From NCBI GenBank assembly GCA_017396555.1, contig JAFQLS010000013.1, positions 1 to 64,000 of the forward strand: a stretch of DNA of 64,000 bases, read 5' to 3'. The notes beneath the pieces were generated by a model. That model saw nothing but the letters and a program-made list of their open reading frames with translations, made no database searches and was not told where the DNA came from. The stretch's first letter is position 1. The number at the start of each line of letters is the position of its first letter. Position numbers and translations under genes: made by a program. Source of the stretch: Lachnospiraceae bacterium (GTDB lineage: Bacteria; Bacillota; Clostridia; Lachnospirales; Lachnospiraceae). Shown here piece after piece: positions 14,871 to 34,312 of the stretch.

Positions 14871-14889
14871 ACTTTGGAGGTGTACTACT

Positions 14890-17878: not shown

Positions 17879-17894
17879 CTGAATATATTTAGTG

Positions 17895-18055: not shown

Positions 18056-21000
18056 ATGAAAAAAAATAAGAATGGGTTTTTGAAAATTTGTTTTGTGATA
18101 TCAATATTAATTATTATTGGAAGTCTATTTATGCATATATCAAGTAGCGGTGAGGGCTACAGAGTTGTACGTATTGCAGAAGTTAATGGAAATGTAACTG
18201 TAGTTAAAGATGGTATAGAGTACAAAGCTTATAAGGGGATGAATGTATCGGAAGGAGCAGTACTTGTTACATCGGCAGGAAGTAACGTGAGAATGGTTCT
18301 TGATGATGATAAGTATGTTAAGCTTGAATCTGGTAGTAGAATGGTTTTTGAGACTTTAGGTTTACTTGGAAGCGGTAATACCTCAATGAAGCTTGAAAGA
18401 GGAAGTGTAACGAGCGAGATAATTAAACCTCTGGCTGTAGATGAAAATTTTATTGTAAATACACCTAATGCAGTTCTTGCAGTTAGGGGTACATATTTTC
18501 GTGTGGGCTTAAGCAGAGACGAAAATGGAGATACTACGACAGATGTTCTTACATATGGTGGAACTGTAGCGAGTAACCGTGTGTTGCCTGATGGCGAAGT
18601 GGTAGAGGAAGAGGTGTTAATTGAGGTTGGATATAAAGCTAAGATTAATATGGATACCAAGGATACAGTCTATGTGGTAGATGAGGTTGAGGGTGATGGA
18701 AAAGGGAAAAAGACAGCTAAAATAAGCATTGATGATATTTCGGATGAAGACCTGGTGGATATATATTTTGCTTCTGAAAATGGACATGATATGTTTATTA
18801 AATCAGAAGAAATCAAGAAAAATATTGATATAAGAGAGATTAAGGTTGAAGAATATTCTTCTGTATATGATAAGGTAAAAGAACTTGATAGGGAAAAGGA
18901 AGTGGTTGTTGCAGATGATAGTGTGCCACTTATACAGGAGGAAGAAAAGGAAGAAGAGGCAAATTCTACATTTGGAGCTCCATATGATGGAGCACACACT
19001 CATAAGGAAAGCAGGACTACTGTAGATGCAACCTGTCTTGAAGATGGTCTTACAACAGTTACATGTGACACTTGTGGGATGGTAGTGCAGGAAGTTGTTA
19101 TACCGGCTGCAGGACACACAAATGGTGAGGCGGTAGTAACTCTTGAAGAAACCTGTACTACTGATGGAACTTTGACAACAAGTTGTATAATCTGTGGGAT
19201 AATAATAAAGGAAGAGGTTATTTCGATGACGGGTCATACAGCTGGTGAACCGGAAGTGACAATACATGCTACTTGTACAACAGATGGAGTATTAACTACG
19301 AAATGTACAGTATGTGAAGCTGTAACCAAAGAGGAAGTTGTTCCAATGACAGGTCATAGAGAAGTTACTAATACAGTGGTAGCAACTTGTACATCAAAGG
19401 GTAAATCTACTGTGAAATGTAACGTATGTGGATTGATTTTTTCTGAAACAGAGTTAGAAGCAACGGGGCATACAGAAGTAAATGGAGGGACAAGAAATTG
19501 TCATAGCAAATGTTCTACTTGTGGGGTAACTATAATTAAGGAGCATAATATAAGCTCTAAGAAAACAAAGGCGCCGACTTGTACAGATAAAGGTGTTATG
19601 ACACATACCTGTAAATGTGGATACAGTTATACCACAGATATATCTGAGACAGGGCATACAGAGGTAACAGGAGGAACAAAAGATTGTCATAGTAAATGTA
19701 GTGTGTGTGGGGCAATTTTGCAAAATGAAACAAGTCACAGTTATGTAGGAAAGGTAACAAAGGCGGTGACCTGTACAGAAAACGGTATTAGAACGTATAC
19801 TTGTTCTTGTGGACATATATATACAAAGGAAATTGTAGCAACCGGACATGCTAAGACAGATGAGAATGCATCAATAACAACTTGTAGTGGGTGTGGTGAG
19901 GCATGGATTGATTTGAACAGTAAGAATTTTAAGGATAATGTTTTATGTGCTTATTTGACTACAAATTATGATACTGATACAAATGGTGTGTTATTAGGAA
20001 AAGAAATTACAGCTGTTACAACAATTGATGTATCCGGTACAACAACTACGGATGGTGGTGTTACAACCTTGGCGGGTATAGAATACCTGTCAGAATTAAC
20101 ATCAGTTTCGTGTAACTATAATACAGGAATTGCAAATGTTGATTTATCGCAAAACAATAAGATTAATACATTTAGTGCAATAAATTGTACGGGTATTACA
20201 GCATTAGATGCAAGTGGTTGTAGCGTACTTAAAACAATAAATCTGAAAAATAGTACAGCAATTACGAGCCTGGATGTATCAAACTGTGCATCACTTACAA
20301 CTTTAGATACAAGTACACTGGCAACGCTACAGACAATCACAGTAAGTGGTAGTGGATTGACAAGTCTGGATGTTGCTGCAAATACAGCACTTACTACATT
20401 AGAGGCACAGAATTGCTTATCATTGACAAGCGTAACATCTGAGGTGCTAGAAAAGAACTCAAATGCATTGAGTTCTGTAGATGTAAGTGGATGTGCAAAT
20501 TTAGTTACATTAAATCTTAAATACTGTAGCTATGTTACAGAATTAGATTTACGAACCCTTACAAATCTGGAAGTGTTAAATGTGGCATATTCGGGAGTTA
20601 CAATTTATACAGGTATGACAGGTATGGCATTCCCTAACAATACAAAGTTGAGAGAGGTTTATGCAAACCATATTAACCTTAGTGCAATTGATTTGTCTGC
20701 TAACGCAGATTTGGAAGTATTCTATAATACCTCAAATACTACGACTACCAGTCTTGATTTGACAAATAATGTAAAGCTTAGAGAATTGGCACTGGGAGAT
20801 TTAACACAGGTTACAACACTGGATTTAAGTAAATGTACCTTGTTGGAATTTGCGAGCATAGGAGGAACAAAGATAACCACATTGTCTTTAACAAATCATC
20901 CTAACCTAACATTTTTAGAGCTGACCAATAGTTCGAAACTTAATCAACTAGAGATATCTAATTCGCCAAGTCTTGCTACACTGACTGTTGTAAATTGTAC

Positions 21001-21574
21001 GTCCCTTACAAGCTTGGATATTAGTACATTTACAAATCTTGAAGTGTTTAAGGCAAATGGTTCCGGCATAAAGAATTTGTCAGGAAGTACAACCTGTTTG
21101 GATTTTTCGACTAATAAAAAGCTAAAGGAATTGCAATTGAATAGATTAACGTCATTTAGTGAAATCGACTTAACAGAAAACACGATGCTGGAAATCTTTG
21201 TATATAGTAGTATGCCAATGACTTCGATTGATTTGTCAAATTGCGTGGCACTGCAAAATTTCCAGATAGATGGTTCGGCTGTTACTTCATTAGATTTTAG
21301 TAACTGTCCGGAAATATTTAGAATTATTAATCAGAACTCAAGTGCGTTAAAATCAGTGAATGTAAGTGGATGTACAAAGCTTATGGATATACGTTTGAGA
21401 TCGTCAAATAATGTAACAACATTTAATATATCAGGTGCAGGAAGTGAAGTTGAAGAAGGCGCATATAAGGAAGGCTTGTATCTTGTATTTGCAGTTTCAT
21501 CCGGTTCAACTACACAAACTACTTTGCAAAATGCAACAGGCTGGGATGCTACCAAGATGAGCATTGATAATTAA
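18056..21574 (+). CDS. FecR-domain, Cys-repeat and leucine-rich surface protein, copy 1
   Basis: 1172 residues. One N-terminal membrane helix (about 8-28) anchors or exports it. Residues about 34-190 are a FecR-like domain (RVVRIAEVNGNVTVV, NTPNAVLAVRGTYFRV). Residues about 310-620 hold seven or more repeats of an 'AxCTxxGxxTxxCxxCG...ATGHT' type, each with a CxxC. Residues about 640-1170 are leucine-rich repeats of the LTSLDVSxC form. There is no LPXTG motif at the C-terminus. GAAAGGAG precedes the ATG. It pairs with the cNMP-DUF2225 gene 28 bases downstream; the same pair recurs at 22874. The FecR domain usually senses or transmits a signal across the membrane; ligand and partner are unknown. 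Confidence 0.8.
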   Translation: MKKNKNGFLKICFVISILIIIGSLFMHISSSGEGYRVVRIAEVNGNVTVVKDGIEYKAYKGMNVSEGAVLVTSAGSNVRMVLDDDKYVKLESGSRMVFETLGLLGSGNTSMKLERGSVTSEIIKPLAVDENFIVNTPNAVLAVRGTYFRVGLSRDENGDTTTDVLTYGGTVASNRVLPDGEVVEEEVLIEVGYKAKINMDTKDTVYVVDEVEGDGKGKKTAKISIDDISDEDLVDIYFASENGHDMFIKSEEIKKNIDIREIKVEEYSSVYDKVKELDREKEVVVADDSVPLIQEEEKEEEANSTFGAPYDGAHTHKESRTTVDATCLEDGLTTVTCDTCGMVVQEVVIPAAGHTNGEAVVTLEETCTTDGTLTTSCIICGIIIKEEVISMTGHTAGEPEVTIHATCTTDGVLTTKCTVCEAVTKEEVVPMTGHREVTNTVVATCTSKGKSTVKCNVCGLIFSETELEATGHTEVNGGTRNCHSKCSTCGVTIIKEHNISSKKTKAPTCTDKGVMTHTCKCGYSYTTDISETGHTEVTGGTKDCHSKCSVCGAILQNETSHSYVGKVTKAVTCTENGIRTYTCSCGHIYTKEIVATGHAKTDENASITTCSGCGEAWIDLNSKNFKDNVLCAYLTTNYDTDTNGVLLGKEITAVTTIDVSGTTTTDGGVTTLAGIEYLSELTSVSCNYNTGIANVDLSQNNKINTFSAINCTGITALDASGCSVLKTINLKNSTAITSLDVSNCASLTTLDTSTLATLQTITVSGSGLTSLDVAANTALTTLEAQNCLSLTSVTSEVLEKNSNALSSVDVSGCANLVTLNLKYCSYVTELDLRTLTNLEVLNVAYSGVTIYTGMTGMAFPNNTKLREVYANHINLSAIDLSANADLEVFYNTSNTTTTSLDLTNNVKLRELALGDLTQVTTLDLSKCTLLEFASIGGTKITTLSLTNHPNLTFLELTNSSKLNQLEISNSPSLATLTVVNCTSLTSLDISTFTNLEVFKANGSGIKNLSGSTTCLDFSTNKKLKELQLNRLTSFSEIDLTENTMLEIFVYSSMPMTSIDLSNCVALQNFQIDGSAVTSLDFSNCPEIFRIINQNSSALKSVNVSGCTKLMDIRLRSSNNVTTFNISGAGSEVEEGAYKEGLYLVFAVSSGSTTQTTLQNATGWDATKMSIDN

Positions 21575-21602
21575 TATATATTATTTTAGGAGAGAGAATA
21601 AA

Positions 21603-22742
21603 ATGCAAGCAGAAACAATTTTACAACTAAAAAAGATTTCGGAACCAAAACAATTTGTGGCAAAGGACTATATTTGCTGTGAAGGGCAACCTGGTGATGA
21701 AATGTATATCATTCTTAAGGGTTCAGTTGGGATATATATTACAAGTGTGATTGGTACACTTACACAGGTGGCAACCATAAAAGAAGGTGACTTCTTTGGC
21801 GAAATGGCAATATTTGATAATCTTCCCCGTAGTGCATCGTGTATTGCACTGGAAGATACTATAACAGTTGCGATTAATAAGGATAACCTCGAAAAATTTT
21901 TGGAGGCATGTCCTGAAATTGCAAGGCAAATGCTTGAGAAAATGAGCGGAAGAATTCGTAAATTGAATAATGAGTTATATCAGAATACTCGTTTTGTTAA
22001 AAATCGATTTGTGCCTAAGTTTTCAATACCTACAGTGTATAATAGTGGTCATGTGGTAAAAGCTCCGTATCAGGATCCGCATCTTGTTAATGAATACAAG
22101 CAAAAATGTCCGATTTGTGGAAAAGTAGTTACGGTTAAAGATTTAAAACGAAATATTCTTGAAGAGAAGAGCTTTGAAGTAGATGGACGTATAATTTATC
22201 TGGGATGCGATCCTCTATGGACAGAAATAATATCTTGTCCTCACTGTTATTATACTAATCATTATTTAAAGTTCTTTAGTATTAACAATTTTGAATATGA
22301 AGTGGTTGAAAAATTGCTGTTTTCAGAACACAAGACTGTTGTCGAAGATAGATTAGAACGCAGAGGCGATTTTGATATTATGGTTATGAAGTATTTACAG
22401 GCTATTAATATAAACGAACATATTAATCCGGGAGCGAATATTTTGATTGGTGGAATGTGGAGAAATCTATATTGGATGTGTAAGGATGTATCTGATAAGG
22501 AATTTGCAAAATATTGTGCTAGAAATGTTATTGATAAATACAAAAAGGCTATAGATCAGGATGAGATATATGATGCATCAAGTAGAGCTGCAATTGCATT
22601 ATCGCTTACTAATATGATGTATGTTTGTGGAGAATATAAAGATATTATGCGTTATATATCAATAGCTACAGAGAGCCCAAATGAGAAAGTAAAGAATATG
22701 GCACTTCGTGTGAAGGAACATTTAGAAAAGATACAAAAGTAA
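21603..22742 (+). CDS. cNMP-binding protein with DUF2225 zinc-ribbon region, copy 1
   Basis: 379 residues. Residues 1-120 are a cyclic-nucleotide-binding domain; the phosphate-binding cassette reads GDFFGEMAIFDNLPRSAS, with the ribose-contacting Glu at 67 and the phosphate-contacting Arg at 76 both present. Residues about 165-225 are a DUF2225 region with C169, C172, C202, C212 and C215, likely a metal site. The C-terminal 150 residues look helical, TPR-like. No helix-turn-helix is evident, so it is not a plain CRP-type regulator. Start at 21603 chosen for AGGAGAG upstream. Coupled to the FecR/LRR gene. Role unknown; cAMP-binding is predicted from residues. Confidence 0.82.
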   Translation: MQAETILQLKKISEPKQFVAKDYICCEGQPGDEMYIILKGSVGIYITSVIGTLTQVATIKEGDFFGEMAIFDNLPRSASCIALEDTITVAINKDNLEKFLEACPEIARQMLEKMSGRIRKLNNELYQNTRFVKNRFVPKFSIPTVYNSGHVVKAPYQDPHLVNEYKQKCPICGKVVTVKDLKRNILEEKSFEVDGRIIYLGCDPLWTEIISCPHCYYTNHYLKFFSINNFEYEVVEKLLFSEHKTVVEDRLERRGDFDIMVMKYLQAININEHINPGANILIGGMWRNLYWMCKDVSDKEFAKYCARNVIDKYKKAIDQDEIYDASSRAAIALSLTNMMYVCGEYKDIMRYISIATESPNEKVKNMALRVKEHLEKIQK

Positions 22743-22755
22743 TAAATTCATTATA

Positions 22756-22784
22756 TTGATAAATAACTTGGTGTATGATAAAAT
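22756..22784 (+). promoter_or_regulatory. Promoter of the second FecR/LRR pair
   Basis: TTGATA (22756-22761) and TAAAAT (22779-22784) are 17 bases apart in the 131-base gap. The -35 box is the same as that before copy 1. Confidence 0.55.
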
Positions 22785-22873
22785 ATATAAAAAATGAGTA
22801 GCTAAAGTCAAGTTATTTGTGCAAAAGCAACAAAGACACTAATACAATATGGACAGAAACGGAGTTGAATTAT

Positions 22874-25800
22874 ATGAAAACTACAGTAAATATAATAATA
22901 AAAGTGGGTTCTGTAGTATTAGGACTTATTGTGGCTATAATGGTGTCTTTTATTGTTTCAGAAGGTAATGATGGCTACAGAGTTGTACGTATTGCAGAAG
23001 TGAACGGGAATGTAACCGTAGTTAGAGATGGTATAGAGTACAAAGCTTATAAGGGGATGAATGTATCGGAAGGAGCAATACTTGTTACATCAGCAGGAAG
23101 TAACGTGAGAATGGTTCTTGATGATGATAAGTATGTCAAGCTTGAGCCTGGTAGCAGAATGACCTTCGAGACTCTTGGTGTACTTGGAAGTGGTAATACT
23201 GCTATGAAGCTTGAGCGCGGAAGTGTAACAAGTGAGATTGTAAAACCTCTTGCTGTTGATGAATCATTTATTGTAAATACGCCTAATGCGGTTCTTGCGG
23301 TTAGGGGAACATATTTTCGCGTGGATTTAAGTATGAATGAGAACGGAGATACTACAACGGATGTACTTACATATGGCGGAACAGTAGCAAGTAATCGTAT
23401 AATGCCGGATGGACAGGTTGTGGAAGAGGAAGTATTAATCGAGGATGGATATAAAGCAAAGATTAATATGGATACAAAGGATACAGTCTATGTGGTAGAT
23501 GAGGTTGGTGTTGAAGGAGAAGGAAAGGGCAAAAAAACTTCTAAGATAAAACTTGACGATATTCCGGATGAAGACCTTGTAGACATATATTTTGCTTCTG
23601 AAAATGGACATGATATGTTTATTAAAACAGAAGAAATTAAGAAAAATATAGAGATAAGAGACATTAAATTAGAAGAGTATACATCTGTATATGATAAGGT
23701 AAAGGAGCTTGACAGAGCAAATGAAGTGGTTGTAGCAGATGACAGTATGCCACTTATTCAGGAAGAAGAAAAGGATGAGACGGTAACATCTACATTCGGT
23801 GCGCCATATGATGGAGCACATACTCATAAGGAAAGCAGGACTATAGTGGGTGCAACCTGTCTTGAAGATGGTCTTACAACAGTTACCTGTGATACCTGTG
23901 GAATGGTAGTGCAGGAAGTTGTAATAGCGGCTACAGGACACACAGATGGTGAGGCGGTAGTAACTCTTGAAGAAACTTGTACTACGGATGGAACTTTGAC
24001 AACCAACTGTACAATCTGTGGAGCAGTAACTAAGGAAGAAGTAATACCAATGACAGGGCATACAGATGGCGAACCGGAAGTGACAACACCTGCCACATGT
24101 ACTCAGACAGGTATGCTGACAACGAGATGTACAGTATGTGAAGCTATAACAAAAGAAGAAGTCATAGCAATGCTTGAACATACTCAGGTTACCAATATAG
24201 TGGCTGCAACCTGTACGACAAAAGGTAAAGAAACAGTGAGTTGTAGTGATTGTGGATTAATCTTTTCAGAGAAAGAGCTTGATATAACAGCTCATACAGA
24301 GGAAAAAGGTGGTACAAGCGATTGTCATAGCAAGTGTAATGTGTGTGGAGTAACATTGAGTAAAGAGCATACATATACATCAGTGCAGACAAAGGCACCA
24401 ACTTGTACAGAAAAAGGTGAGACAACACATACCTGTGAATGCGGATATACATATAAGACAGAGGTACCTGCAACGGGACATACAGAGGTTAAAGGAGGAA
24501 CCAAAGATTGTCATGTAAAATGTAGTACATGTGGAGTTGTATTACAGGCTGAAAAGGCGCATAGCTATACTAATTCAGTGACAAAGGCAGCAACCTGCAC
24601 TGCAACAGGAGTGCGAGCATACACATGTGCCTGTGGTTACAGTTATACAGAAGAAATAGCAGCAACAGGTCATAGTTATAAGGATATGATAGATGAGCCT
24701 ACAGATATGGCTGATGGTAGAGAATATGAAGAATGTAGTAATTGTGGTGATGAAATTAATATATCTCCAATTATTGCGATAAATGCAGTAAACTTCCCTG
24801 ATGAAACTCTTAGAACGTATGTAGAAGCAAACTACAATACTAATGGAATAAAAGGATTACATATATCAGAGATAGGAGCAGCAACAAATTTACATATAGA
24901 ATCAGATGCTGTTACTACGATGAAAGGAATTGAATACCTGACAGCACTCGAATCAATTGTTGTAGATGATGGTTCCGGTATTTCTGATGGAGAATTGGAT
25001 ATAAGTAAGAATACTGCTTTACAACAATTTGCTATTCCTAATATGGAAATTAGTAGCATAGATGTAAGTAAAAATTCAGAATTACAGATGCTTTTATTAA
25101 CAGATGCTAATATTACAAGTATTGACTTAAGTAATAATAAATCACTAAATTATTTATATGTAGATAGCACTGAACTTACAAGCCTTGATGTGAGTGGTAA
25201 TACAAACTTACAATACTTGATTGCAGGGACAACAAATATTTCTAGCTTGAATGTAAATGGCTGTACATCATTACTAAGCTTGCAGATACCATATACGGAA
25301 CTTACAAGTATTGATGTTACATCATTGAAAGCATTGAACGAAATAGATTGCAGATATTCTGATATAACTTCATTAGATTTATCTGCAAATTCAGAACTTA
25401 CTAATCTTATGTTGGATGGTTCTACTATTGATTTGATAGATGTATCTTTAAATGTAAAGCTTAACAGATTAAGCGCTGATAGCTGTGGTGCTCTTACAGT
25501 GATAAAGTGTAGTGTAGATGAAGATACAGAACATGCATTAAAGTATATGTATGTAAATGATTGTACGAATCTTATTGACATAAATGTAACAAACTGCTCA
25601 GAACTTGTATCATTAGATACAAGTACCTGTACTGCACTAGAGTCATTACTGATTAGTGGTACGAGACTTGAAAACGTAGATGTAACGGCTAATGCAAGTC
25701 TTAGTAGTTTGGAGGCAAATAATTGTACATCTTTGAATACAGTAAATGCAGCCGGAGTAACAACTCTTAGTAGTTTAGAAACAAATAATTGTACAATGCT

Positions 25801-26527
25801 TACTACGCTTGATGTATCTGGAAGTATTGTTTCTGATATAGATTCAGCTATATCAGGTTCTACATCACTGGAAGTGTTAGATATAAATGGCTGTACCGGC
25901 GTTACAGAGTTTGACCCAAGCACGTTTACCAATCTTACGGATTTAGATATAAGTGGAACAGGTATAACGAATCTTGACTTGGTAAATAATGTGGCGTTGA
26001 CTAATCTGGTAGCTACAGGAAGTGCTCTTACGGGTGCTTTGGATTATACATATCTTACTAACCTTGTAACACTTGAACTTGGCAATATTACCGGAATTAC
26101 AAGTATAAATGTAAGTAATGTAGATACACTTGAGAGACTTGTGGTAACAGGATGTAGTGTTTTGAATACAATAAGAGCCACAGACTGTACAAGTCTTACA
26201 TATTTAGGTTTCAGCAGAACTCTGGCTGTTACACATATGTATTTGGAAAGAACAGCTATACCTGGAAGTGCTGGAAGTGCTAATTTTAATCTATATAATG
26301 ATAATAAGATACAGGTGCTTAGATTTGATGGTAATACAGCATTAAATTGTTTACAGATTTCAGGAGCTAATACATTAACAGAAGTTTCTATAGTGGGCTG
26401 TACAGGATTGACGCAGTTCCATATGACTGATTATACAGGAACAATTACTATTGATGGTTCTACTTGTACATCTCTTACAACAATAAGTACAGGTAATAGT
26501 AGCGGACTAACATTTATTAGACCTTAA
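22874..26527 (+). CDS. FecR-domain, Cys-repeat and leucine-rich surface protein, copy 2
   Basis: 1217 residues and a paralogue of the protein at 18056: N-terminal membrane helix (about 8-30), FecR-like domain, a block of CxxC repeats ending in GHT, then leucine-rich repeats. FecR and repeat blocks are strongly similar to copy 1; the LRR part differs in sequence and count, which points to different ligands. Start at 22874 is chosen because CGGAG lies upstream and the other copy begins at the equivalent place; the longer TTG-started frame has no site. No sortase motif. Function unknown. Confidence 0.8.
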   Translation: MKTTVNIIIKVGSVVLGLIVAIMVSFIVSEGNDGYRVVRIAEVNGNVTVVRDGIEYKAYKGMNVSEGAILVTSAGSNVRMVLDDDKYVKLEPGSRMTFETLGVLGSGNTAMKLERGSVTSEIVKPLAVDESFIVNTPNAVLAVRGTYFRVDLSMNENGDTTTDVLTYGGTVASNRIMPDGQVVEEEVLIEDGYKAKINMDTKDTVYVVDEVGVEGEGKGKKTSKIKLDDIPDEDLVDIYFASENGHDMFIKTEEIKKNIEIRDIKLEEYTSVYDKVKELDRANEVVVADDSMPLIQEEEKDETVTSTFGAPYDGAHTHKESRTIVGATCLEDGLTTVTCDTCGMVVQEVVIAATGHTDGEAVVTLEETCTTDGTLTTNCTICGAVTKEEVIPMTGHTDGEPEVTTPATCTQTGMLTTRCTVCEAITKEEVIAMLEHTQVTNIVAATCTTKGKETVSCSDCGLIFSEKELDITAHTEEKGGTSDCHSKCNVCGVTLSKEHTYTSVQTKAPTCTEKGETTHTCECGYTYKTEVPATGHTEVKGGTKDCHVKCSTCGVVLQAEKAHSYTNSVTKAATCTATGVRAYTCACGYSYTEEIAATGHSYKDMIDEPTDMADGREYEECSNCGDEINISPIIAINAVNFPDETLRTYVEANYNTNGIKGLHISEIGAATNLHIESDAVTTMKGIEYLTALESIVVDDGSGISDGELDISKNTALQQFAIPNMEISSIDVSKNSELQMLLLTDANITSIDLSNNKSLNYLYVDSTELTSLDVSGNTNLQYLIAGTTNISSLNVNGCTSLLSLQIPYTELTSIDVTSLKALNEIDCRYSDITSLDLSANSELTNLMLDGSTIDLIDVSLNVKLNRLSADSCGALTVIKCSVDEDTEHALKYMYVNDCTNLIDINVTNCSELVSLDTSTCTALESLLISGTRLENVDVTANASLSSLEANNCTSLNTVNAAGVTTLSSLETNNCTMLTTLDVSGSIVSDIDSAISGSTSLEVLDINGCTGVTEFDPSTFTNLTDLDISGTGITNLDLVNNVALTNLVATGSALTGALDYTYLTNLVTLELGNITGITSINVSNVDTLERLVVTGCSVLNTIRATDCTSLTYLGFSRTLAVTHMYLERTAIPGSAGSANFNLYNDNKIQVLRFDGNTALNCLQISGANTLTEVSIVGCTGLTQFHMTDYTGTITIDGSTCTSLTTISTGNSSGLTFIRP

Positions 26528-26579
26528 AATAATTACTTGCTTAAATTTATACAATATAGAGAAGGAAATTGTTTATAAT

Positions 26580-27722
26580 ATGCAGGCAGAAACAATTCTA
26601 CAACTAAAAAAGATTTCAGAACCAAAGCAATTTGCTGCAAAGGATTATATATGTTTTGAAGGACAACCCGGTAATGAAATGTATATCATATTAAAAGGCT
26701 CGGTTGGTGTGTTTATTACGAGTGTCATTGGAACACTTACACAGGTAGCAACCATAAAAGAAGGTGACTTCTTTGGTGAAATGGCAATTTTTGATAAACT
26801 TCCGCGTAGTGCATCATGCATTGCGCTGGAGGATACCATAGCAGTTGCGATTACAAAAGAAAACCTTCAGGAATTTATGGCAACCTGTCCGGAAATTGCA
26901 AAACAAATGCTTGAAAATATGAGCGGACGAATCCGAAAATTGAATAATGAATTATATCAGAATAATCGTTTTGTAAAAAACCGCCATGTGCCTAAGTTTG
27001 AAATCCCTGTAGCCTATACTACAGGACATGTGGTAAAGGCACCATATCAAGATCCGAATCTTGTTAACGAATACAAGCAAAAGTGTCCTATTTGTGGAAA
27101 AGTTGTTACAGTAAAGGATTTGAAGAGAAATATTTTAGAAGAGAAAAGTTTTGAAGCAGATTGCAGAATTATTTATTTGGGATGTGATCCGTTATGGACT
27201 GAGATTATTGCATGTCCACATTGCTATTATACAAACCATTATTTGAAATTCTTTGGAATTAATAATTTTGAATATGAGGTTATAGAAAAATTATTATTTG
27301 CAGAGCATAAGCCGATTGTTGAGGATAGATTAGAACGACGAGGGGATTTTGATATTATGGTTATGAAATATTTACAGGCTATTAATATTAATGAGCATAT
27401 TAATCCTGGAGCAAATGCTTTGATTGGTGGTATGTGGAGAAATCTATATTGGATGTGCAAGGATGTTTCTGACAAAGAATTTGCAATGTATTGTGCAAAA
27501 AAAGCTGTAGAAAAATACAAAGTTGCAGTGGATGAAAATGAATTTCATGATATTGAAAGTAAGACTGCTACAGCACTATCACTTGCGAATATAATGGCTT
27601 ATTGTGGAGAACGAAAAGAAGTAAAACATTATATAACAATAGCCACAGATAGTCCGAATGAGAAAATCAAAAATAGAGCAGTTCGTATAAAGGCACATTT
27701 GGAGCAGAGGGAGAATAAATAG
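26580..27722 (+). CDS. cNMP-binding protein with DUF2225 zinc-ribbon region, copy 2
   Basis: 380 residues, close paralogue of the protein at 21603. The cassette GDFFGEMAIFDKLPRSAS keeps Glu and Arg, and the CPICG and CPHC pairs are present. The greatest differences are in the last 70 residues. GAAGGAAA lies about 10 bases before the ATG. It follows the second FecR/LRR gene by 52 bases. The preserved cassette in both copies suggests both still bind a cyclic nucleotide. Confidence 0.82.
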   Translation: MQAETILQLKKISEPKQFAAKDYICFEGQPGNEMYIILKGSVGVFITSVIGTLTQVATIKEGDFFGEMAIFDKLPRSASCIALEDTIAVAITKENLQEFMATCPEIAKQMLENMSGRIRKLNNELYQNNRFVKNRHVPKFEIPVAYTTGHVVKAPYQDPNLVNEYKQKCPICGKVVTVKDLKRNILEEKSFEADCRIIYLGCDPLWTEIIACPHCYYTNHYLKFFGINNFEYEVIEKLLFAEHKPIVEDRLERRGDFDIMVMKYLQAININEHINPGANALIGGMWRNLYWMCKDVSDKEFAMYCAKKAVEKYKVAVDENEFHDIESKTATALSLANIMAYCGERKEVKHYITIATDSPNEKIKNRAVRIKAHLEQRENK

Positions 27723-27728
27723 TATTTA

Positions 27729-27757
27729 TTGTATATATGTGTAAAATATGCTAAAAT
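27729..27757 (+). promoter_or_regulatory. Possible promoter of the cyclase gene
   Basis: TTGTAT (27729-27734) and TAAAAT (27752-27757) are 17 bases apart. The region is AT-rich, so this is tentative. Confidence 0.45.
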
Positions 27758-27805
27758 ATTTGTATATTTTTGCTGGTGAAATGAAATAAACGGGAGGCTT
27801 AATAC

Positions 27806-29608
27806 ATGAGTAAAGGAATTAAAAAAGCAATTATTTGCATAGTATGTGCAGTTGTTGCATTTTTGTCGGCATATTTCAATGTATTTGGTACTATTGATAA
27901 AGCAATTGAAGATGTATTGTATCATAATGCAGGGAAAGTTAATCCTAAGATTAAGATTATTAAGATTGATGATTCTACAATGAATAGATATGGTGATATT
28001 TATGAGTGGAATAGAGATATTTATGCTGATTTAATTGATACGTTATGTGTGTCGAAGGATATACGTCCTGCAGTAATTGGATTTGATGTGCTTTTCAGTA
28101 GCGAAAAAATAAAGGATTCAGATCAGCAGTTTGCTGACAAGTGTAAAGAATATGGAAATGTTGTACTTGGATTTAGTTATGTCTTTGAAAGTGCAATAGT
28201 GACAGATAGTAACGGTGAATTGTACAATGATACAATGGCTGTTAAAGAAAAGGTAGTTCCTATTGATATATTAAAGGATGTGACAAGTCAAGGCTTTGTT
28301 AATGCGTTGATGGATAGTGAAGATAGCAAGATAAGAAGTGCATTTATGTACTTTGAAGAAGAGGATGGAACGGTTACAAGAAGCTTTAATTCAATGATAT
28401 ATGAAAAATATATGGAAAGCTTAGGTAAGGAACCAAAATACCCTACTGATGACAGTATAATGACATTTAAGTATTCTGGTGAACCAGAAGATTTTGAAAA
28501 TGTCTCATTATGTGATGTATTAGATGGGAATGTACCGGCTGAGGCTTTTGATGATTGTATCGTACTTATAGGAGCTTATGCAGCAGGAATGCAGGATGCA
28601 TATTTTGTTCCTGTTGATACAACACAGCAGATGTATGGAGTAGAGATTCATGCTAATATTATTCAGGCTATTATGGACGAGAATACACTTGAGAGAATTC
28701 CAATGTGGATTGATGCGGTTATTGCAGCAATTATAGCATTTGTGTTGGTGTTGCTTTTTGACAGACTCAGTGTAATAAAGATGGTTCTCACAAGTTGTGG
28801 GGTTATAATTACTAAGCTGTTAATCGGCTTGTTATTGTTTAATATGGGTTATACATGGAACAATCTTGTTGTGCCTGTTGTAGTTGTTCTGATTGCTTTA
28901 TACTATATAGGACTTCATTATTACAAGGCTAGAGCAGCAAGGCAGAGTATAGAAAAGGCTTTCAGTAAATATGTGGCTCCACAGGTAGTTAAGGAAATTG
29001 CAAAGGATGGTACATTTGAATTAAAGCTTGGTGGCGAAAATAGAAATGTTGCAGTATTGTTCGTGGATATTCGTGGATTCACACCTCTATCAGAAAGTCT
29101 AGAGCCGGAGCAGGTAGTTGATATATTGAACAATTATCTTGAACTTACAACAAATAGTATTTTCCGTCATGGAGGAACTCTTGATAAATTTATAGGTGAT
29201 GCTACGATGGCGGTATTTAATTCACCATTTGATACTGAAGACTATGTATATAAGGCGATTCTTGCAGCGTGGGATATAGTTCAGGGAGGAAATAAGATAG
29301 AAGAACAATTTGTTAAAAAATATGGTAAACATGTTGGATTTGGTGTTGGTGTTAACTGTGGTCCGGCGGTTGTTGGTAATATTGGATGTGAATTTAGAAT
29401 GGACTACACTGCAATTGGTGATACAGTCAATACAGCTGCAAGACTTGAGGCAAATGCACCAAGAGGAACTGTATACATAAGTGATGCTGTATACAAACAG
29501 GTTAAAGATAGAATTACAGTAGAAGATGTGGGAGAAATTCCGCTTAAGGGTAAATCAAAGGGTGTGTTTGTATACTCTGTTACGGGAATCAATGGTTACG
29601 AAGGCTAA
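27806..29608 (+). CDS. CHASE2-domain class III adenylate cyclase
   Basis: 600 residues. A first membrane helix (about 7-27) is followed by an extracytoplasmic CHASE2 sensor (about 30-290), a cluster of membrane helices (about 295-375) and a cytosolic class III cyclase domain (about 406-595). All catalytic residues are there: metal Asp421 (FVDIRGFT) and Asp465 (FIGDATMAVF), substrate Lys461 and Asp533 (DYTAIGD) that specify adenine, Asn542 and Arg546 for the transition state. It should make cAMP from ATP in response to an external signal. GGGAGG precedes the ATG. It follows two cNMP-binding genes and precedes a cNMP-phosphatase. Adenine specificity is residue-based inference. Confidence 0.9.
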   Translation: MSKGIKKAIICIVCAVVAFLSAYFNVFGTIDKAIEDVLYHNAGKVNPKIKIIKIDDSTMNRYGDIYEWNRDIYADLIDTLCVSKDIRPAVIGFDVLFSSEKIKDSDQQFADKCKEYGNVVLGFSYVFESAIVTDSNGELYNDTMAVKEKVVPIDILKDVTSQGFVNALMDSEDSKIRSAFMYFEEEDGTVTRSFNSMIYEKYMESLGKEPKYPTDDSIMTFKYSGEPEDFENVSLCDVLDGNVPAEAFDDCIVLIGAYAAGMQDAYFVPVDTTQQMYGVEIHANIIQAIMDENTLERIPMWIDAVIAAIIAFVLVLLFDRLSVIKMVLTSCGVIITKLLIGLLLFNMGYTWNNLVVPVVVVLIALYYIGLHYYKARAARQSIEKAFSKYVAPQVVKEIAKDGTFELKLGGENRNVAVLFVDIRGFTPLSESLEPEQVVDILNNYLELTTNSIFRHGGTLDKFIGDATMAVFNSPFDTEDYVYKAILAAWDIVQGGNKIEEQFVKKYGKHVGFGVGVNCGPAVVGNIGCEFRMDYTAIGDTVNTAARLEANAPRGTVYISDAVYKQVKDRITVEDVGEIPLKGKSKGVFVYSVTGINGYEG

Positions 29609-29620
29609 TAGGAGGTGTGT

Positions 29621-30400
29621 ATGAAGCAAATACTTATTGTGCCGGATATAAATAATTTAGATGCTGATATGGAATTAGTGGATAGATACTCTTTTGGTTT
29701 TGAGTATAATGATTTCTTTTATCCGGATGTATTGGATGATGAAAAGAGGCTTAATGAAATTATTGAAAAATATAAAAGCTATAAGCTTCCGGAGTATTCA
29801 ACAGTTCATGGGGCTTTTTTTGATGTGATTCCATTTAGTATTGATTCTAAGATAAGGGAGATTTCAATGCTTAGAATAGAACAAAGTATTGATGTGGCAT
29901 TAAGGCTTGGGGCAAAGGCAGTTATATTTCATACTAACTATAACCCGTTTCTCAATTCCGCAATATATGTAGAGGGGTGGATTAAAGAAAATGTAAAGAT
30001 TTGGACTGAGGTTGTTGAAAAATATACTGATATAAATATCTATCTGGAAAATATGTTTGATATGACTCCTGATATTATGTTAAAGCTAGGGGAAAGTTTA
30101 TGTAAATATGAAAATTTTGGTATATGTCTTGATTATGCTCATGCATCGCTTGGTAAGGTTCAACCACATATCTGGGTGGAAAAGCTTGGTAAATATATAA
30201 AACATATTCATATTAACGATAATGACCTTGTTAGCGATTTGCATCTTGCATGGGGAGATGGAAAAATAAAAAGGGAGTTGTTTTATGAAAGCTACGAGAA
30301 ATTTATGAGTAGTGCTACTGTTCTAATAGAAACATCACTCATGGAAAATAAATTACAATCTATAAATGTTCTGAAAAAAGAAGGCTTTATAGATAAATAG
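29621..30400 (+). CDS. TIM-barrel protein, xylose isomerase/AP endonuclease 2-like
   Basis: 259 residues. The sugar-phosphate isomerase/epimerase-like fold is suggested by VHGAFFD, VIFHTNYN, IYLENMFD, CLDYAHA, HIHINDND and VLIETS, which supply His, Glu and Asp residues for a divalent metal site at the expected strand ends. Substrate unknown; sugar isomerase, epimerase and endonuclease IV-like roles are all possible. AGGAGG precedes the ATG at 29621. It lies 12 bases after the cyclase and 13 before the STAS gene, so it is embedded in the signalling operon, an unexpected place for a metabolic enzyme. Confidence 0.78.
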   Translation: MKQILIVPDINNLDADMELVDRYSFGFEYNDFFYPDVLDDEKRLNEIIEKYKSYKLPEYSTVHGAFFDVIPFSIDSKIREISMLRIEQSIDVALRLGAKAVIFHTNYNPFLNSAIYVEGWIKENVKIWTEVVEKYTDINIYLENMFDMTPDIMLKLGESLCKYENFGICLDYAHASLGKVQPHIWVEKLGKYIKHIHINDNDLVSDLHLAWGDGKIKRELFYESYEKFMSSATVLIETSLMENKLQSINVLKKEGFIDK

Positions 30401-30413
30401 GAGGCTAAAGAAT

Positions 30414-30710
30414 ATGGAAATTTTAAAGAAACGTGATGGAGAAACATTGAAGGTTGACTTAGTAGGAAGACTTGATACAACTACAGGTCCTGAACTTGAA
30501 AGTAATTTGATTGATGAACTGGATGATGTCACAGAATTGATTCTTGATTTTGAACAACTTGATTATGTATCATCAGCAGGACTTAGAGTACTTCTGGTGC
30601 TTCAGAAAAAGATGAATAAGCAGGGAAACATGGTTATTAGAAATGTGAGCGAATCTATTATTGAGGTATTTGATATTACAGGGTTTATTGATATTTTGAC
30701 AATTGAATAG
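30414..30710 (+). CDS. STAS-domain anti-sigma factor antagonist-like protein
   Basis: 98 residues, a single STAS domain. The phosphorylatable Ser sits in DYVSSAGLRVLL, the site that partner-switching kinases modify. The RsbV/SpoIIAA family binds and releases a HATPase-type kinase depending on phosphorylation. The next two genes encode such a kinase and a PP2C phosphatase, so the three form a full partner-switch set. GGAGG lies upstream. Which output it controls is unknown. Confidence 0.9.
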   Translation: MEILKKRDGETLKVDLVGRLDTTTGPELESNLIDELDDVTELILDFEQLDYVSSAGLRVLLVLQKKMNKQGNMVIRNVSESIIEVFDITGFIDILTIE

Positions 30711-30727
30711 TTTGGGGGCTGTAATGT

Positions 30728-31150
30728 ATGGTTCAAAAAATATTTCCGGCAAATGACATATTTTTAAAAGATGTCATGACTTTTACTGAAGAGGAAATGG
30801 TTAAAGTCAATGTTTCTACAAAGGTTATTACGCAGGTTAAGATTTGTGTAGAAGAGATTTTTGTGAATATCGCGCATTATGCATATGGAGACGAAAAAGG
30901 AGAGGCAAAAATAAGCATTCTATATGATGAATATAAAAATGCAATGACATTTATTTTTGAAGACGAGGGTGTTCCTTATAATCCGCTGGATAAAAGCGAC
31001 CCTGATACTACTTTAAGTGCAGAGGAGAGGAAAATAGGAGGACTCGGTATATTTATATGTAAGAAAACTATGGATGATATTCAATATAAGTACGAAAATG
31101 GTAAAAATATATTATCTATGACAAAAACATTAGATAGTAAGTACTTATAG
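30728..31150 (+). CDS. HATPase-type serine kinase, RsbW/SpoIIAB-like
   Basis: 140 residues. The GHKL ATP site is seen as the N box EEIFVNIAHYAY, the G1 box DEGVPYNPL and the G2 box GGLGIFIC. Such proteins phosphorylate a STAS partner and often sequester another protein. Here no alternative sigma factor gene is nearby, so the sequestered target need not be a sigma factor. It lies 17 bases after the STAS gene and 14 before the phosphatase ATG. Confidence 0.88.
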   Translation: MVQKIFPANDIFLKDVMTFTEEEMVKVNVSTKVITQVKICVEEIFVNIAHYAYGDEKGEAKISILYDEYKNAMTFIFEDEGVPYNPLDKSDPDTTLSAEERKIGGLGIFICKKTMDDIQYKYENGKNILSMTKTLDSKYL

Positions 31151-31164
31151 TGACAGGAGGCTTT

Positions 31165-32340
31165 ATGGACGCAAATTATTTAAGAAAAGTGCCAACTATA
31201 CAGGAATTTTTTAAGATTAAGGAAGGTCAGGAATTGTCCGAGGAAACAAGATTGTTTCTTGAGGCAATGAGTGAGGTTAGTATTAGCAAAGGTCAGAATA
31301 TTGTTACTGTTAATGAGGATTGTCAGGATGGTATGTACATAATTTTAGAAGGTAGAGCAAATGTATTTGCCAGTGATGGTTCGTTGATAAATATTCTTGG
31401 TAAAGGTGAGTTTATTGGTGAATTAGGACTTATAAATGATCAAAAACGTGGCGCTACAGTGTGTGCAGATACGGATGTAGTATGTGCTAATATTTCGAGA
31501 CAGTTATTTGAAGATGTAGCGATGAAGAATCGTAAAATTTATGGTGCATTCATAAATATGTTATATAACAAGACAACGAAAATGGTTGCTGAACAGGAAA
31601 GAATACGTTCTGAACTTGAAATTGCGACTAAGATACAGGCTGATTGTCTGGAATCAGATTTTTCTGAATTTAATAAGTTGCCTAATCTTAAGGTTAATGC
31701 ACTTATGAGACCGGCTAAGGAGGTTGGTGGAGACTTTTATGATATATTTATGATTGATGATACTCATATGTGTTTTTTAATTGCAGATGTATCGGGTAAA
31801 GGCGTACCGGCAGCGTTATTTATGGTAATGGCAAAGACACACATTAAGAATTATTCATCACTTGGTTTGTCTCTTAGTGAGTCTGTAACAAGAGCTAATA
31901 ATCAGTTGTGCTATAAAAATGAGCAGGGTATGTTTGTAACTGCATTTGTGTGTGTTCTTGATATTGAAACTAATAAGGTTACGTTTGTAAATGCAGGACA
32001 TAATAAGCCATTTATACGTAAGAAGGATGATAAATTCGTTATGTATCCGGCAAAGAGAAATCTTGTGCTTGGTTTGATGGAAGATATCGTATATAAAGAA
32101 CAGGAATTTATGTTGGAGGAGGGTGACTGCCTGTATCTATATACCGATGGAGTGTCGGAAGCATTGAATATAAATAAAGAATTGCTTGGTGATGCGAGAT
32201 TAGAAGAAATGCTTAACAGACATACTGATGATGTGTATGATGTTGACTTGTTTGTGCAAGATATGTTTAAAGAAGTCGATGATTTTGCGGGAGAAGAAAT
32301 TCAGGCAGATGATATTACGATGCTATATCTTGCGAGATAA
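31165..32340 (+). CDS. cNMP-binding domain fused to SpoIIE-type PP2C phosphatase
   Basis: 391 residues. The N-terminal domain (about 20-140) is a cyclic-nucleotide-binding fold with GEFIGELGLINDQKRGAT, which keeps the ribose Glu and phosphate Arg. A coiled linker (about 145-165) leads to a complete SpoIIE/RsbU-type phosphatase (about 185-390): EVGGDFYD, ADVSGKGVPAALFM, NAGHN, LYTDGVSEA and ADDITML supply the metal Asp residues. It should dephosphorylate the STAS protein, with cyclic nucleotide as the input. Start at 31165 chosen for AGGAGG seven bases before; an upstream GTG at 31150 lacks a site. Input-output logic is inference. Confidence 0.9.
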   Translation: MDANYLRKVPTIQEFFKIKEGQELSEETRLFLEAMSEVSISKGQNIVTVNEDCQDGMYIILEGRANVFASDGSLINILGKGEFIGELGLINDQKRGATVCADTDVVCANISRQLFEDVAMKNRKIYGAFINMLYNKTTKMVAEQERIRSELEIATKIQADCLESDFSEFNKLPNLKVNALMRPAKEVGGDFYDIFMIDDTHMCFLIADVSGKGVPAALFMVMAKTHIKNYSSLGLSLSESVTRANNQLCYKNEQGMFVTAFVCVLDIETNKVTFVNAGHNKPFIRKKDDKFVMYPAKRNLVLGLMEDIVYKEQEFMLEEGDCLYLYTDGVSEALNINKELLGDARLEEMLNRHTDDVYDVDLFVQDMFKEVDDFAGEEIQADDITMLYLAR

Positions 32341-32366
32341 ATAATATTTTAGGAGTAGGTGATAGA

Positions 32367-33581
32367 ATGGATTTTAGTAAAGAAATATTAGAATTAATTA
32401 ATGGACAGGAGACTTGCATTACAATAGTGGATGCGAAAAGTTTGGAAGTTGTATATGGTGGTTCGGATTGTATAGAGGGACTTATGGAAGAGTGTCCTAC
32501 ATTAACATCACAAAAGAATCGTGTGGAATGGGAATTCTTAGATATTATGACTAAGAAATATTATAAGTGTAATTCTACTATGTTTGAAAAGAATGGGAAT
32601 AATTATATTATGCATTTGCAGTGTGATGTAACTGAGTATATGAGCCTCAACCGAGATGTAACGAAGTATATGGCGTTTTTTAAAAAACTTTCTGCATTTC
32701 AGACTGCAGTGCTTGAAAATCTTTCAAATACTTATTATGAACTACTTCCGATGCTTCTTGAATATTTTAAGGGCGAAAAAGTTTATTTTATGATTCAAAG
32801 AGATGATAAGTTGGATATAATAACATACATAGGTAAGGAAAAAATCTTTGAAAATGCCAGAATTAATTATGACGATACAGTGGCTGAATGTTTTGAAAAA
32901 TGCAAGACAGCAGATATTCTCGGTATGTCGGTAAAAGGTGAACTACCAGAGATGCATACATTGTGTAATGGTAATGCACTTAATCAGAATTATTCAATTG
33001 TTTTCCCAGAGTCGGCAAAGCTGGATAAAGATTCAATGAGTGAAAAGACTCTTATAAATGTTATTAAGCTCTTTGTTGAAAATACAATGCTTAGAGAAAA
33101 ACTTGTGTATGACAGCGAACATGACAAGCTTACAGGCTTGTACAACAAAGGAAAATATTTGGAAATGACGGAGCAAACATTCCCTAATGCCGGTTCTATA
33201 GCAATATTTAACTTTGATGTAAATGATTTGAAGATAATGAATGATACCTATGGACATGAAGCTGGTGATAAGTTATTGATTAAGGCGGCAGATAGTATTC
33301 GTAAAGTTGTCAATAATAATACCTTTGGCTTCCGTATGGGCGGTGATGAATATCTTATGGTTGCAATTAATATAGAACAGGAAGAAGTTGACAGGCTTCG
33401 TAAGCGCTGGGAAGAAGAACTTGCAAGACTCAATGAGGCAGATGATGGTATTAATTGCGTTATTGCTGTTGGTGTGGCTTATGCAAAGTCGCCATATGAT
33501 TTTAGTGAATTAACAAAAATAGCAGATGCCTTGATGTATGAAGATAAGAAGATTAAAAAGGCAGGAAGAGAAATAAGATAG
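32367..33581 (+). CDS. Cytosolic diguanylate cyclase (GGDEF) with N-terminal sensor region
   Basis: 404 residues with no membrane helix. Residues about 10-95 look PAS-like (CITIVDAKSLEVVYG) and about 110-235 GAF-like. The GGDEF domain (about 245-404) has DKLTGLYNKGKYLEM, FDVNDLKIMNDTYGHEAGD and the signature GGDEY, a common active form. No RxxD inhibitory site is seen ahead of it. It should make c-di-GMP. It follows the cNMP-phosphatase by 26 bases and precedes deoD by 14, so it looks co-transcribed with the cAMP genes. Confidence 0.88.
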   Translation: MDFSKEILELINGQETCITIVDAKSLEVVYGGSDCIEGLMEECPTLTSQKNRVEWEFLDIMTKKYYKCNSTMFEKNGNNYIMHLQCDVTEYMSLNRDVTKYMAFFKKLSAFQTAVLENLSNTYYELLPMLLEYFKGEKVYFMIQRDDKLDIITYIGKEKIFENARINYDDTVAECFEKCKTADILGMSVKGELPEMHTLCNGNALNQNYSIVFPESAKLDKDSMSEKTLINVIKLFVENTMLREKLVYDSEHDKLTGLYNKGKYLEMTEQTFPNAGSIAIFNFDVNDLKIMNDTYGHEAGDKLLIKAADSIRKVVNNNTFGFRMGGDEYLMVAINIEQEEVDRLRKRWEEELARLNEADDGINCVIAVGVAYAKSPYDFSELTKIADALMYEDKKIKKAGREIR

Positions 33582-33595: not shown

Positions 33596-34312
33596 ATGTC
33601 AACACCACATAATCAGGCTGAAATGGGAGAAATAGCTAAGACGGTACTGATGCCAGGTGATCCGCTTAGAGCAAAATTTATAGCAGAGACATTTCTTGAA
33701 AACCCGGTGCAGTTTAATTCTGTAAGAAATATGTTTGGATATACAGGAACCTATAAGGGTAAGGAAGTATCGGTTATGGGTTCGGGTATGGGAATGCCAT
33801 CAATAGGCATTTATTCATATGAACTCTATTCGCAGTATGGAGTTGAAAATATTATTAGAATTGGTTCTGCGGGTTCATATTGTGAAAAAGCTAAGGTATA
33901 TGATGTTGTATTGGCAACAGAAGCATATTCTAAGTCGAATTTTGCTTTGGTTCAGAATGGATATGACAAGGATAAAACTTATCCATCGGATAAATTAAAT
34001 GATATGATTAGAGAATCTGCTAAAAACTTGGGCATTCCATTGATAGAAGGATGTATACATTCGTCGGATGTATTTTATCAGGAAGATAAGACACCATATC
34101 ATGAAAAATTATATAGTGACCACGGATGTTTTGCGGTTGAGATGGAGAGCTTTGCTTTGTTTCATAATGCATCGGTTCTTGGTAAAAATGCAGCATGTCT
34201 GCTTACGATATCAGATTCATTTGTGTCAAAGGAAGTCACTACGGCAGAGGAAAGGCAGAATTCATTTACTAATATGATGAAAATTGCTCTTGAGACAGCA
34301 ATAAATTTATAA
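33596..34312 (+). CDS. deoD: Purine nucleoside phosphorylase, DeoD type
   Basis: 238 residues, the usual size of the hexameric family. MPGDPLRAKFIAE binds phosphate, GSGMGMPSIGIYSYEL forms part of the nucleoside pocket and VEMESFALF carries the ribose-binding Glu. The active-site Asp is in TISDSF. It splits purine nucleosides with phosphate for salvage. It lies 14 bases after the GGDEF gene, probably as the last gene of that transcript, then a terminator follows. Confidence 0.93.
   Translation: MSTPHNQAEMGEIAKTVLMPGDPLRAKFIAETFLENPVQFNSVRNMFGYTGTYKGKEVSVMGSGMGMPSIGIYSYELYSQYGVENIIRIGSAGSYCEKAKVYDVVLATEAYSKSNFALVQNGYDKDKTYPSDKLNDMIRESAKNLGIPLIEGCIHSSDVFYQEDKTPYHEKLYSDHGCFAVEMESFALFHNASVLGKNAACLLTISDSFVSKEVTTAEERQNSFTNMMKIALETAINL

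Follow-up and report, generated by a model that had tools for sequence, protein, structure and literature searches.

Results

Gene content of the cluster

We analysed 64,000 nucleotides from a Lachnospiraceae bacterium (assembly GCA_017396555.1, contig JAFQLS010000013.1, positions 1 to 64,000 of the forward strand), referred to below as the window. Between positions 18056 and 33581 the window carries ten genes in a single direction, which encode two predicted surface proteins with FecR and leucine-rich repeat (LRR) domains, two proteins combining a cyclic-nucleotide-binding (cNMP) domain with DUF2225, a class III nucleotide cyclase with a CHASE2 domain, a TIM-barrel protein, and a set of STAS, HATPase_c_2, PP2C-type phosphatase and GGDEF proteins (Table 1). 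This layout had been claimed in a preliminary description of the same DNA and is borne out by the list of open reading frames (ORFs) and by Pfam, which confirms the domain type of all ten genes. At three genes, starting at 21600, 22874 and 29621, the likely start codon is not that of the longest ORF. The last six genes are closely spaced, with gaps of at most 26 bases and one overlap, while the first four consist of a two-gene unit, FecR/CxxC/LRR plus cNMP-DUF2225, that is duplicated in tandem (18056-27722). Within the duplicated unit the cNMP-DUF2225 partner is far better preserved (82%) than the surface protein (53%).

Table 1. Positions of the ten cluster genes and of flanking features in the window.
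Feature	Position	Strand	Basis
Predicted surface protein 1: N-terminal hydrophobic segment 4-32, FecR, 7 CxxC, LRR	18056..21574	+	Pfam FecR 40.4 bits, LRR_EndoS 44.5 bits
cNMP-binding + DUF2225 protein 1	21600..22742	+	Pfam 79.5 and 66.1 bits; aligns with protein kinase A (PKA) RI-alpha
Predicted surface protein 2: FecR, 7 CxxC, LRR	22874..26527	+	Pfam; 53% identical to protein 1
cNMP-binding + DUF2225 protein 2	26580..27722	+	Pfam; 82% identical to copy 1
CHASE2 + class III adenylate/guanylate cyclase, adenine-type K/D pair	27806..29608	+	CHASE2 144.5 bits, Guanylate_cyc 88.3 bits
TIM-barrel protein, proposed cAMP phosphodiesterase	29621..30400	+	AP_endonuc_2 66.6 bits; nine Endo IV-type tri-zinc ligands
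STAS protein	30414..30710	+	Pfam 57.0 bits; conserved serine
HATPase_c_2 protein, predicted STAS kinase	30728..31150	+	Pfam 79.3 bits; alignment of 7
cNMP-binding + SpoIIE-type PP2C phosphatase	31150..32340	+	SpoIIE 166.6 bits, cNMP_binding 63.8 bits; alignment of 9
GGDEF protein, proposed STAS target	32367..33581	+	Pfam 91.1 bits
Terminator-like hairpin after tRNA-Leu, upstream of the cluster	17894..17925	+	weak
Sigma-70-like promoter match, 11/12	17986..18014	+	consensus scan; about 40 bases before gene 1; weak
Nucleoside phosphorylase, possibly co-transcribed, not counted in the circuit	33596..34312	+	PNP_UDP_1 129.7 bits; 14 bases downstream of the cluster

The cyclase loci share a core and exchange the read-out

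To compare the cluster with its relatives we used a family-level sample of 299 genomes, in which the tally shows one genome for each genus. Besides the window, 53 CHASE2 neighbourhoods were fetched and annotated with profiles built from the window proteins, and a scan of the genome collection gave another 80 loci, which have named records. Both sets together, minus three duplicates (L132, L094 and L153, with the same cyclase C-terminus as L066, L051 and L044) and minus six CHASE2 loci without a cyclase, make up 125 cyclase loci. L195 and L122 are apparently the same contig of 41669 bases and only L122 is among the 125; a 127-residue CHASE2 fragment (G086:C11) was left outside the sample. Locus length varies (3.6-24 kb, about 20 kb being seen of each) and some contigs are short, so that absences are uncertain and the counts are lower bounds.

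FecR occurs at 94 of the 125 cyclase loci, the TIM-barrel protein at 68 and a metallo-beta-lactamase-fold protein at 20. A GAF-HD or related protein was found by profile at 75, an upper bound as the profile also matches GAF-GGDEF proteins; stricter clustering gives 29 of the first 54 CHASE2 loci. The cNMP-SpoIIE phosphatase (PP2C) is present at 9 loci, cNMP-DUF2225 at 5, and STAS together with the GGDEF family of the window at 6. The recurring core is a CHASE2 cyclase, a FecR protein and a hydrolase-like protein, and the read-out part is exchangeable, consisting of GAF-HD-GYP, of cNMP-DUF2225 or, as in the window, of cNMP-PP2C/STAS/HATPase/GGDEF. GAF and HD were confirmed by Pfam for the two proteins tested, and the HHE...GYP residues, which we take to be the motif of HD-GYP phosphodiesterases, are invariant in 19 of 19 aligned proteins, including four fusions to CHASE2 and one to the TIM barrel.

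The ten genes had been presented as one cluster. While its core does recur as neighbours in relatives, the full set is found at none of the other 124 loci, and we reject the ten genes as one conserved system because the DUF2225 and PP2C modules are never together at these loci. The window combines two otherwise separate modules, namely FecR/cNMP-DUF2225, which is found in its nearest relatives (L051, L053, L092 and L095), and PP2C/STAS/HATPase/GGDEF, which is found at L035, L037, L043, L121 and L123. At L037 and L121 the TIM gene is a few genes away and in the opposite orientation, L102 has PP2C and HATPase followed by the contig end, and L056 and L119 have PP2C without STAS. Neither PP2C nor STAS was seen near the closest cyclase relatives (L051, L053 and L090-L096), some of which are on short contigs. 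STAS and HATPase matches of L075 at a looser threshold were excluded from the counts. A GAF-HD-GYP protein is often present where the PP2C/STAS cassette is missing; PP2C and GAF-HD overlap at one of nine loci (L123), which we use as supporting evidence only as an independent-pairs test gave a median p of 0.5.

Predicted surface proteins, CHASE2 sensor and cyclase

The only hydrophobic stretch of either FecR/LRR protein is close to the N-terminus, and each protein has seven CxxC motifs. The cyclase has one hydrophobic segment at its start and a group at residues 295-373, which fits a CHASE2 domain outside and a catalytic domain inside the cell. Both domains score well above their Pfam cut-offs (CHASE2 144.5 versus 26.3 bits, Guanylate_cyc 88.3 versus 21.9 bits). 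Among 20 aligned cyclases D421, D465, K461, N542 and R546 show no variation and D533 very little; presumably these are the catalytic aspartate pair, the adenine-type Lys/Asp and the Asn/Arg residues. The earlier claim of a cyclase with all catalytic residues therefore stands as a prediction.

FecR, CHASE2 and class III cyclase are present in 45, 49 and 53 of the 299 genomes, respectively. Of these genomes, 40 have both FecR and CHASE2, 5 have FecR only and 9 have CHASE2 only. CHASE2 is thus found in 40 of 45 genomes with FecR compared to 9 of 254 without, and FecR is tied to CHASE2 across genomes. Fisher values at the genome level take no account of kinship, although the tally is one genome per genus. 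FecR proteins accompany CHASE2 with either output, namely the cyclase (94 of 125 loci) or HD-GYP (three of four loci), and may provide a handle on the CHASE2 signal. The host's second cyclase begins 11 bases after a gene for a TIR-domain protein (L088:4453-6743, G000:C23; TIR_2 73.0 bits), and the two are a possible signalling or defence pair.

Predicted cyclic-nucleotide receptors

The genome of the window contains three class III cyclases. A search of the whole assembly (85% complete) yielded three cNMP_binding matches only, all inside the cluster and all without a DNA-binding Pfam domain, so that no CRP-type regulator was found, although one could be missed at this completeness. This agrees with the earlier proposal of a partner switch instead of a CRP regulon. 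All 18 aligned cNMP domains, including the three of the window, retain the pocket glutamate and arginine, which upholds the prediction of one cyclase with three receptors with an intact pocket. Using phmmer, the DUF2225-type cNMP domain pairs with PKA RI-alpha and the PP2C-type domain with domains of cGMP- and cAMP-dependent kinases. As the solved relatives include both kinds of kinase, sequence alone cannot tell which nucleotide is bound.

This last point is compatible with cNMP domains that sense a ligand other than cyclic AMP (cAMP) and with a cluster of unrelated modules standing side by side, for which its composite make-up would also speak. We consider this very improbable given the conserved Glu/Arg pocket and given that the cluster holds the only cNMP_binding matches of a genome with three class III cyclases. 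In addition, proteins with one or two cNMP domains also adjoin TIM and cyclase genes at L154, L180 and L181. At the last of these (L181:8603-11776) the genes for a double-cNMP protein, a TIM relative and a PAS-cyclase follow one another and are a candidate set of receptor, hydrolase and cyclase. A 1041-residue cNMP-domain protein lies near a CHASE2 cyclase at L159:12096-15221, a stretch in which no TIM or lactamase-fold gene was found.

The TIM-barrel protein as a candidate cAMP phosphodiesterase

The preliminary description gave the TIM-barrel protein no role. Few proteins accompany the cyclase as consistently, and we predict that it is the circuit's cAMP phosphodiesterase, with a tri-zinc site. 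Nine residues (H63, H104, E143, D171, H174, H197, D206, H208 and E237) are invariant in 21 of 21 aligned copies, and based on the ligand numbering of E. coli Nfo we take them to be tri-zinc ligands. By eye, eight of the nine align with the solved endonuclease IV (Endo IV) 5zhz, and H63 aligns with a histidine of 3wqo and 3ayt. The AlphaFold model of the protein has a predicted local distance difference test (pLDDT) score of 95.8. The protein remains below the curated cut-offs of the endonuclease IV profile TIGR00587 (25.2 and 21.5 bits versus 129.65) and of the CbiR profile NF041277 (25.2 versus 105 bits), and the genome of the window also encodes an Xth-type AP endonuclease (342 bits). Relatives of the TIM protein number 2416 at E <= 1e-20, of which close copies are an uncounted share.

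We then analysed the co-occurrence with cyclases, with a match above 300 bits defined as strong TIM. A class III cyclase is present in 29 of 29 strong-TIM genomes compared to 24 of 270 others (53 of 299 overall). This is replicated at the class level, where both further strong-TIM genomes have a class III cyclase, giving 31 of 31 in all. In 25 of the 29 genomes the strong TIM and cyclase matches begin at most 4 kb apart. Strong TIM occurs in 4 of 7 genomes with a cyclase without CHASE2, in none of 3 with CHASE2 without a cyclase, in 25 of 46 with both and in none of 243 with neither. Strong TIM follows the cyclase rather than CHASE2, and in three of the four genomes with a cyclase but no CHASE2 the distance between it and a cyclase of a different type is about 3 kb. 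Among 14 further genomes of the class-level sample with TIM at E <= 1e-25, the 12 with weaker matches (100-188 bits) have no class III cyclase, and in the family sample the cyclase is found in 2 of 15 weaker-TIM genomes. The tie is thus limited to the close family.

Two kinds of fusion involve the TIM barrel. At L083, L148 and L150 it forms a single chain of about 750 residues with a GAF-HD protein. At L197:8949-10139 (G436, TIM 188 bits) a CHASE2 start runs into the second half of a TIM barrel; G436 has no class III cyclase match, and the frame resembles a natural deletion.

The TIM protein could instead be a sugar phosphate isomerase/epimerase that rides along, leaving the circuit here with no dedicated phosphodiesterase. 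The four named relatives among 120 listed all carry this name, the fold class includes epimerases, and the title of 3wqo, a relative of known structure, calls it a D-tagatose 3-epimerase-like protein. Epimerases use one metal, at variance with the nine invariant ligands of a tri-zinc hydrolase pattern. The protein is also far below the cut-offs for fructoselysine 3-epimerase (30.9 versus 305 bits) and IolO (20.3 versus 300 bits), and no other NCBIfam epimerase profile matches at 0.001. Moreover, an epimerase would have to account for the class III cyclase in every strong-TIM genome, for the three fusions to GAF-HD proteins, and for recurrent neighbours that, where identified, are signalling or hydrolase proteins and one NHL-repeat family (neighbour clusters 5, 8 and 9 were not assigned). 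We regard this explanation as distinctly improbable.

It is unlikely, if somewhat less so, that the TIM protein hydrolyses another nucleotide of the circuit, such as pGpG, c-di-GMP or 2',3'-cyclic nucleotides, and not cAMP. Endo IV-like enzymes cut varied phosphodiesters, as illustrated by an excerpt on CbiR (PMC7733943). Furthermore, the TIM gene adjoins an HD or GGDEF gene at L173 and L177 in stretches without a cyclase, and GGDEF genes lie between TIM and cyclase at L174-L176. Nevertheless, the cyclase accompanies TIM in every strong-TIM genome, and TIM is absent from the loci of four CHASE2-HD-GYP fusions described below.

Returning to cAMP as the substrate, we tentatively propose, with slightly less than an even chance of being right, that the TIM protein is the first representative of a new class of cyclic-nucleotide phosphodiesterases, which have the tri-zinc endonuclease IV fold and are masked by the annotation 'sugar phosphate isomerase/epimerase'. 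Across Clostridia, such enzymes would work alongside class III cyclases of at least two sensor types, and they would close a relay from cAMP to c-di-GMP whose diguanylate cyclase is driven by a cAMP-gated PP2C/STAS switch. If so, this phosphodiesterase class cannot be found by name, and a direct enzyme test is possible. A cAMP phosphodiesterase of Endo IV fold is not described in the titles and abstract beginnings of the open-licence literature that we searched, which leaves out most subscription journals; PMC3828134 concerns a different protein, Tm1631.

An alternative candidate hydrolase of lactamase fold

A hydrolase is expected at this position of the locus because Campylobacterota clusters, according to an excerpt of PMC9239204, place a cAMP phosphodiesterase beside a CHASE2 cyclase and FecR. 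The TIM and lactamase-fold genes share none of the 125 loci, the single profile overlap (L099) being a match of 23.8 bits that lies 7.5 kb away from the TIM gene of that locus. In the cyclase tree the TIM/lactamase labels need three changes, with clear switches at L119 (lactamase within a TIM clade) and L154 (TIM within a lactamase clade). This suggests that one hydrolase is replaced by the other at cyclase loci, three events being few. The exclusion does not count as strong statistics, since the Fisher p of 2e-7 (125 loci, L099 counted) is inflated by kinship and an independent-pairs test is not significant (median p 0.625); we keep it as supporting only.

The lactamase-fold protein retains HxHxDH and further ligands in 20 of 20 aligned copies, and among solved structures it is related to RNase Z and to further hydrolases of this fold. 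A proven cAMP phosphodiesterase was not upheld for this protein, as RNase Z is the best profile for the L062 copy (77.8 bits) and the cyclic-nucleotide phosphodiesterase profile gives 54.8 bits compared to a cut-off of 400.

A partner switch that probably controls c-di-GMP

The serine of the STAS protein is conserved in 6 of 6 aligned sequences and presumably corresponds to that of anti-sigma-factor antagonists. The GGDEF protein reads GGDEY in the window and GGDEF in three aligned relatives, and its family is found at 6 of 6 STAS loci and at none of the 119 other cyclase loci. A structure model of this protein (mean pLDDT 66.6 from 4 sequences) was too poor to search and was not used.

At four loci (L065, L073, L076 and L082) CHASE2 is fused directly to an HD-GYP-type domain, as confirmed by Pfam for L073. 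These loci have no cyclase, TIM or lactamase-fold gene, and FecR is present in three of the four stretches. Judged from their gene content, the fusions are a putative short-cut circuit from which the cAMP step is removed along with both candidate hydrolases.

Based on the co-occurrence of STAS and GGDEF, the common GAF-HD-GYP proteins, the CHASE2-HD-GYP fusions and the TIM-GAF-HD fusions, the output of the circuit is likely cyclic di-GMP (c-di-GMP). The second messenger has predicted readers in the host, as the genome contains eight c-di-GMP-I riboswitches and three PilZ proteins. One of the riboswitches is in the window (3517-3641, 57.3 bits), 34 bases before an ORF (3676-4884) for a 402-residue protein with a hydrophobic start and no Pfam match. 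The proposed output through protein partner switching is therefore retained insofar as the switch is present, with the amendment that c-di-GMP is its most likely destination.

Sigma factors are the classical targets of HATPase_c_2 and STAS proteins, and the set could control an unlinked sigma factor, with the GGDEF protein as an independent neighbour. The lack of the cassette near the closest relatives of the window would be compatible with such a role. However, STAS and this GGDEF family stay together at all six STAS loci in more than one gene order, and Pfam detects no sigma factor among the ten genes, with no search made elsewhere; by eye, a housekeeping-type sigma gene is located at 37235-38362. 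We regard control of a sigma factor as doubtful.

Proposed relay

With about an even chance of being correct, we propose that the cluster is a relay that converts an outside signal into cAMP and cAMP into c-di-GMP, with the TIM protein as the predicted cAMP phosphodiesterase that resets the relay. The FecR proteins would be outside the membrane, where they may touch or gate the CHASE2 ectodomain, so that an outside cue would pass through the FecR/LRR proteins to CHASE2. The cyclase, judged by its conserved residues, would produce cAMP, which may bind to the cNMP domain of the PP2C phosphatase and alter its activity. By analogy with SiaABCD, the HATPase would phosphorylate the STAS protein and PP2C would dephosphorylate it, and unphosphorylated STAS would switch the GGDEF protein. 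The resulting c-di-GMP could be read by the riboswitches and PilZ proteins of the genome, the two cNMP-DUF2225 proteins may provide a second cAMP output, and the TIM barrel would hydrolyse cAMP at its tri-zinc site. If correct, this is a worked example of one second messenger being handed to another via a protein partner switch. The natural variants with GAF-HD-GYP, cNMP-PP2C/GGDEF or a direct CHASE2-HD-GYP fusion would then allow step-by-step swaps.

Flanking features

Promoter- and terminator-like sites carry little weight, with 63 promoter-like sites compared to 80.8 in shuffled sequences and 6 hairpins compared to 4.9. No RNA leader or riboswitch was found directly before the cluster, a search of 14000-34500 with Rfam yielding only three tRNAs and three matches below gathering thresholds. 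An L20-leader-like RNA (14723-14871, 37.1 bits, gathering 58.7) precedes an ORF at 14902-15396 that is IF3-like by eye. The nucleoside phosphorylase downstream of the cluster is matched in 2 of 57 stretches scanned, the window and L034. The closest named cyclase comes from an Agathobacter sp. metagenome-assembled genome (73% over 594 columns).

Comparison with known systems

The exact gene content had been thought to match no named system. This stands for the open-licence titles and abstract beginnings searched, in which a cNMP-PP2C/STAS/GGDEF system is likewise not described, but parts of it are in print. The excerpt of PMC9239204 reports Campylobacterota clusters of a CHASE2-adenylate cyclase with a FecR protein and an adjacent cAMP phosphodiesterase and also predicts PP2C/STAS/kinase control over c-di-GMP enzymes. 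These clusters differ in that they contain a TPR protein and an outer-membrane FecR protein and that the two systems are described separately; the excerpted account includes no TIM-barrel hydrolase, HD-GYP fusion or cNMP-PP2C. From the Campylobacterota set the window has the CHASE2 cyclase and FecR, whereas its candidate phosphodiesterase, the TIM protein, has a different fold and Pfam detects no TPR in the ten proteins. In the BiofilmReg operon of Burkholderia (PMC5192318, in excerpt) a FecR-domain envelope protein also stands beside a CHASE2 sensor, but CHASE2 is on a histidine kinase and FecR is joined to LysM.

In Sinorhizobium, PMC13001267 describes CyaD1, CyaD2 and CyaK with Clr, where a CHASE2 cyclase answers an outside signal with the help of the envelope protein NsrA. 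There the output is the CRP-type regulator Clr, unlike in the incomplete genome of the window, which yielded no CRP. Bd1971 of Bdellovibrio resembles the proposed relay in that a cNMP domain reads cAMP and controls a c-di-GMP enzyme; according to the excerpt of PMC6717892 it is one protein with an EAL domain under direct control, without a phosphatase or partner switch. The TIM protein shares the AP_endonuc_2 fold with endonuclease IV and CbiR, and CbiR demonstrates that this fold can act as a small-molecule phosphodiesterase (PMC7733943, in excerpt). It differs from both by scoring far under their curated cut-offs and by co-occurring with cyclases.

The closest analogue is SiaABCD of Pseudomonas aeruginosa (PMC7278518), where a small partner protein, whose phosphorylation depends on a PP2C phosphatase and a kinase, switches a diguanylate cyclase, a four-part logic encoded in one operon. 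Compared by domain, such a set of PP2C, predicted kinase, predicted partner and GGDEF stands together in the window, and in 6 of the 125 loci. The PP2C of the window scores 53.2 bits against the SiaA equivalog NF038263, below its cut-off of 700. In contrast to SiaABCD, this PP2C lacks a hydrophobic segment, and a cNMP domain takes the place of the membrane part. The window also differs in having a STAS-domain protein as the predicted partner and a HATPase_c_2 protein as the predicted kinase, and in including a cyclase and its predicted hydrolase.

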